Shown here: one piece after another, positions 44,882 through 45,036 of the stretch
How positions within the stretch are numbered: position 1 is the stretch's first letter
Layout: each line of letters starts with the position of its first letter
Origin: Nitrosopumilus sp. K4
GTDB taxonomy: Archaea > Thermoproteota > Nitrososphaeria > Nitrososphaerales > Nitrosopumilaceae
NCBI RefSeq assembly: GCF_018128925.1
Contig: NZ_CP067007.1
Location: forward strand, 124,001-188,000
Length of the DNA: 64,000 nucleotides
Reading direction: 5' to 3'
Made by a program: the position numbers and the translations under genes
Notes under the pieces: generated by a model
What the model saw: only the letters and a program-made list of their open reading frames with translations
What the model was told of the DNA's origin: nothing
Databases searched by the model: none

Positions 44882-45036
44882 TGGGGCCGACCGGAATCGA
44901 ACCGGCGACCTACGGGTCACTACAGCTCCAAACTTACATCATCCGTTAGTCAGTTTAGCTTAGTTTAACCTCTGGAGCCCTTAGCGGTGATCTTTTTCGT
45001 AGACACTGTCGCCCTACCAGGCTAGGCTACGACCCC
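44882..45036 (-). tRNA. tRNA-Trp (CCA) with two introns
   Basis: Acceptor GGGGTCG/CGGCCCC, T-arm GCCGG TTCGATT CCGGT. Exons 45036-45008, 44980-44972 and 44917-44882 give a 74-nt tRNA with anticodon stem ACGGG/CCCGT and loop CTCCAGA (anticodon CCA). Intron 1 (27 nt, 44981-45007) splits the anticodon stem between positions 28 and 29. Its bulge-helix-bulge uses GGCG/CGCT with bulges ACA and AAG. Intron 2 (54 nt, 44918-44971) is at 37/38 and contains CTGA and GATGATG, C/D-box-like as in other archaeal Trp introns. Only after both are removed does the anticodon stem pair. Confidence 0.85.

Follow-up and report, generated by a model that had tools for sequence, protein, structure and literature searches.

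Several of the elements considered here are already known: tRNAs with multiple introns, relaxed BHB motifs and C/D introns in tRNA-Trp have all been described (PMC4090602, PMC3218864). In archaeal C/D RNAs, box D' followed by box C' is the order of the internal kink-loop (definitions in PMC3608112), and a 2'-O-methylated C34 (Cm34) in tRNA-Trp has been reported from Sulfolobus, Haloferax and Thermococcus (PMC7668247). The closest described systems are the euryarchaeal tRNA-Trp C/D box introns of Haloferax volcanii and of Pyrococcus (sR50). A control scan of one genome per species for a box C' followed by a guide, then box D and the T arm, yielded mostly such introns. In all 71 euryarchaeal introns that were parsed the spacer between C' and box D is 12 nt long (11–13 nt being allowed), C34 is the best-scoring target in 70 of them, and C39 is the best target of the D' guide in 29. 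Known guides need box D beside the guide, as otherwise Nop5-fibrillarin should not be positioned for C34. As a separate observation, a parallel reduction is seen in the tRNA-Trp introns of Methanobacteriales (L073-L190; Methanobrevibacter, Methanosphaera and relatives): the position-39 guide has apparently been lost and box C is degenerate, with box D and the C34 guide retained. One contig labelled Bathyarchaeota (L103) carries an Archaeoglobus-like tRNA-Trp gene, probably because of a binning error.

Here, the tRNA-Trp gene of Nitrosopumilus sp. K4, located in a stretch of 64,000 nt (the window), is compared with these systems. In our estimate, with a probability of roughly 0.7, its second intron is a reduced archaeal tRNA-Trp C/D guide intron, which keeps the D'/C' kink-loop and a 12-nt strand directed to C34, and has lost the terminal boxes C and D together with, in its family, the D' guide.

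The tRNA-Trp gene and its first intron

A sequence-only reading of the window had proposed a tRNA-Trp(CCA) gene with two introns at 44882-45036, and direct reading of the minus strand confirmed it. The features are as follows, all on the minus strand.

44882..45036: tRNA-Trp(CCA) gene with two introns, 155 nt; homologous gene in most relatives
45008..45036: exon 1, tRNA 5' end to nt 28 (direct reading; relatives)
44981..45007: intron 1, 27 nt at 28/29, with a relaxed BHB (bulges ACA and AAG; helix GGCG/CGCU); its removal leaves a fully paired anticodon stem in 51/51 distinct relatives
44972..44980: exon 2, GGG-CU-CCA-G, nt 29-37 with the anticodon inside (direct reading; relatives)
44918..44971: intron 2, 54 nt, position 37/38; 44 distinct family introns, 50-57 nt
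44957..44963: CUAAGCU, former D' guide region, no target in the tRNA, complementary to the guide-strand segment AGUUUGG
44950..44953: box D' (CUGA), in 44/44 distinct family introns
44936..44942: box C' (AUGAUGU), in 44/44 distinct family introns
44924..44935: guide strand of 12 nt, AAGUUUGGAGCU, pairing with tRNA nt 30-39, C34 at N+5
44920..44923: GUAG where box D would be expected, forming as well the 3' strand of the BHB central helix; GYAG in 43/44 family introns
44882..44917: exon 3, nt 38 to discriminator A73 (direct reading)

The three exons (45036-45008, 44980-44972 and 44917-44882) join into a tRNA-Trp(CCA) of 74 nt, and in all intron-bearing relatives checked the removal of both introns leaves a fully paired mature anticodon stem. 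Neither ARAGORN nor the Rfam tRNA model calls the gene, because the two introns break it up; the Rfam matches at this locus are chance-like, below the gathering score and mostly on the tRNA-like 3' half. The remaining tRNA matches of the 1.646-Mb genome are all accounted for and none of them is a second tRNA-Trp or another tRNA with a CCA anticodon, so that splicing of the two-intron gene would be required for cell survival. The gene is an old one, matched in 45 of 61 genomes in a first search and in 145 of 150 in a family search, counts that include some partial matches or matches to other tRNAs; tRNA databases probably list these genes. The same genome also has two CAU-anticodon tRNAs with apparent non-canonical introns, one of about 40 nt near position 30/31 (L326) and one inserted in the D arm (L334).

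For the first intron, the sequence-only reading had claimed that the anticodon stem exists only once 27 nt (44981-45007) are removed, and that a BHB with the helix GGCG/CGCT and the bulges ACA and AAG predicts the same cuts. The coordinates proved exact. No cut in the window other than 28/29 restores the stem, and the BHB is supported as one of the relaxed type. In particular, two 3-nt bulges lie 4 bp apart on a helix with one G-U pair and without an outer exon helix, and the outermost pair of this helix is G-U or G-A in most relatives. Removal of the predicted intron, 14-29 nt long, gives a fully paired 5-bp anticodon stem in all 51 distinct relatives; six of these have A29-U41 in place of G29-C41, a compensatory change, and the inner helix of the BHB covaries on both sides. 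Intron 1 is absent from the tRNA-Trp of the outgroup families f7, f13 and f18.

Relaxed BHBs are processed by the alpha2-beta2 endonuclease (PMC4090602), and the two tRNA_int_endo (EndA-family) proteins predicted in this genome fit what is expected for such an enzyme. Both introns would then be cut at their BHB motifs by an EndA of the two-subunit type, and the exons ligated. In lying at a relaxed BHB away from 37/38, in a genome with two EndA-family proteins, intron 1 resembles the non-canonical BHB introns found in crenarchaeal and thaumarchaeal tRNAs, from which it differs only in its position, 28/29, and in having a C/D-like second intron as a partner. Outgroup tRNA-Trp genes show further apparent introns, close to the junction of acceptor and D stem (L034), within the T loop (L039) and within the D loop (L040, L059, L060, L061), and tRNA-Trp is an apparent intron hot spot in the class.

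The second intron and its proposed C34 guide strand

Intron 2 occupies the canonical position 37/38 inside a BHB. Since GA is repeated at both of its ends, cuts at 36/37 or 38/39 would give the identical mature RNA in the window. The central helix is CUCC/GUAG (CUCC/GYAG in the family) with C34 unpaired, similar to the counterpart in the Archaeoglobus tRNA-Trp intron, CUCC/GAAG, which also has the C34 mismatch. The 54-nt length and the motifs CTGA and GATGATG noted in the sequence-only reading are present (44953-44950, and ATGATGT at 44942-44936). The 44 distinct introns of the family were gathered by whole-gene similarity and not by their boxes, and in all of them CTGA, ATGATGT and TTGGAG are invariant while flanks, loop and length drift; therefore something in this intron is under selection. 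Box C' matches six of the seven letters of the C consensus RUGAUGA, and the succession of CUGA, a short loop and RUGAUG, the sequence elements of a putative kink-loop with tandem GA pairs and of an L7Ae site, recurs in all 44 introns. Minimum-energy folds of the precursor show neither the BHB nor the kink-loop; they were given no weight, the energy model not scoring sheared GA motifs.

This conservation bears on the possibility that the intron is a decaying relic, retained only through the pairing needs of its BHB. That box D and the D' guide have been lost, and the whole intron too in species of two genera, would agree with decay. CTGA and ATGATGT, however, lie outside the BHB and are nevertheless invariant across many genera of the family, and they are present in other families and orders as well. 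Judged on these alignments, decay is already disfavoured and seems improbable.

The 12 nt that follow C' place C34 of the window tRNA at N+5, with a score of 18/20 and rank 1 of 35 positions. Among 43 family sequences, 35 likewise have C34 at N+5 as their top-ranking target, and in the remaining eight one extra spacer nucleotide makes position 35 the target. Intron 2 shares with the euryarchaeal introns the position 37/38, the D'-loop-C' arrangement, the 12-nt guide and the C34 register; the kinship with tRNA-Trp introns that guide 2'-O-methylation, which had been suggested from the sequence, is thereby supported. With archaeal C/D box sRNAs in general it has in common an antisense strand and, putatively, the internal D'/C' kink-loop. 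A common origin with the euryarchaeal intron would rest on the architecture and the guide registers that the two share; in principle, these could also have arisen by convergence or under the constraint of pairing with the anticodon.

The differences lie mainly in the boxes. Box D (CTGA) directly after the guide was found in none of the 44 family introns, the window having GUAG instead, and the full canonical pattern, from C' through guide and box D to the T arm, in none of 397 genomes of the phylum. A terminal box C (RTGATGA) near the 5' splice site is likewise absent from all 44. Intron 2 thus has one C/D motif where archaeal C/D box sRNAs have two, with no CUGA after the guide strand. From the euryarchaeal introns it differs in the missing terminal boxes, in the loss of the D' guide in the family and in the presence of a second intron, at 28/29, in the gene; it is also shorter (54 nt vs 61-102 nt in the controls). 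No published description of a thaumarchaeal intron form without box D was found in a literature search that covered subscription papers only in part. Separate trans-acting C34 guides with canonical boxes were rejected as candidates: patterns requiring exact TTGGAG gave only sporadic matches, in 5 and 10 of 150 genomes and none in the genome of the window.

Fibrillarin and L7Ae-family proteins are encoded in this genome. The geometry is that of a Cm34 guide, and the methylase, fibrillarin, is present; box D being missing, methylation cannot be assumed, and we place active Cm34 guiding by intron 2 somewhat short of even odds. Most likely, L7Ae would bind the kink-loop, and the adjacent guide strand would base-pair with the anticodon arm, either in the pre-tRNA or in the spliced molecule. 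Nop5 and fibrillarin would assemble there with L7Ae, and the resulting particle, nonstandard in having no box D, would still serve to 2'-O-methylate C34. That in Thaumarchaeota a C/D-type particle built around one internal kink-loop, and lacking box D, directs this modification of tRNA-Trp, in cis or right after splicing, is a tentative proposal, slightly less probable again.

The strand upstream of CTGA

A second strand, on the 5' side of CTGA, shows how the intron differs between the family and its outgroups. In all 16 outgroup sequences, which represent nine families, this strand pairs with the tRNA so that C39 at N+5 is the best target, and relatives of the window gene in other families thus keep a D' guide to position 39 like that of euryarchaeal introns, a likeness that speaks for a common origin. 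C39 is the D' target in none of 43 family sequences, among which the strand has no single common tRNA target. In the window C39 scores 4/20 and ranks 24 of 35. Therefore, the pairing of this strand with tRNA-Trp by the N+5 rule, put forward as a check in the sequence-only reading, fails in the window and succeeds in the outgroup families; the rRNA site put forward as the other candidate was not found in a genome search with the exact 9-mer TTAGCTTAG, which occurs eight times (one occurrence being the intron itself), less often than a reversed control, and never within a known RNA family.

The same reading had taken the succession of a D-like and a C-like motif as suited to a circularised intron, in which CTGA would act as box D, ATGATG as box C and the strand 5' of CTGA as the guide. 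Introns of tRNA-Trp do circularise in Haloferax (PMC7714728). CTGA-ATGATG, however, is the ordinary internal D'-C' order, found also in canonical euryarchaeal introns, and circularisation is not needed because D'-C' is the normal order of a kink-loop. Moreover, what drifts is the strand 5' of CTGA, which lacks a target at position 39 both in the window and in the 43 family sequences, has no single shared tRNA target and has a 9-mer complement that matches no RNA family; the conserved strand lies on the other side of CTGA. A circular guide is accordingly very improbable. The circular junction was also considered as a source of box D or C and rejected: its sequence varies among relatives, and the joined ends give no CUGA after the conserved guide. 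An H/ACA-type guide, with the kink-loop on top of a hairpin, is hardly credible: archaeal H/ACA RNAs do carry kink-loops (PMC3608112), but no ACA box lies downstream and the 3' end is occupied by the BHB.

In the family, the old D' strand shows partial complementarity to the guide strand instead (21 genera, Fisher p ~4e-9 vs shuffles, an optimistic value as genera are related and several have the same sequence), a complementarity absent in the nine outgroup families (p ~0.99). This is one of the arguments for the main rival to methylation guiding, namely a purely structural role, in which the kink-loop for L7Ae and the antisense strand would only shape or protect the pre-tRNA, with hairpin and anticodon pairing as alternatives and without any methylation. 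One strand able to pair either with the anticodon or inside a hairpin is in line with this, as is the absence of box D from family introns and from the genomes of the phylum. On the other hand, a spacing of exactly 12 nt and a register on C34 are requirements of a methylation guide and not of a chaperone, and they are common to euryarchaeal guides. We regard a structural element as unlikely, though clearly less so than decay.

Intronless relatives and a possible minimal guide particle

At least 28 of the 150 family genomes have an intronless tRNA-Trp gene (loci L037, L038, L239-L250 and L268-L295). They belong to two genera, g11 and g19, that also include intron-bearing species, and in two genomes compared by eye the intronless gene has the same neighbours as the window gene. 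Therefore, the intron is dispensable and its function not essential, which echoes the tRNA-Trp guide intron of Haloferax, which can be deleted (PMC7714728). The exons of the intronless gene differ at 31, 37 and 39, which are among the positions that the guide strand would pair with. Their near identity in the two genera suggests either a single loss that was then transferred, or common descent.

The reduced guide intron proposed here matters because archaeal guides are regarded as requiring terminal boxes C and D. A lineage with a putative kink-loop and the exact register but no box D represents a natural test of the minimal needs of a guide particle, and outgroups with the C39 guide, a family without it and intronless sister species are ready-made comparisons.
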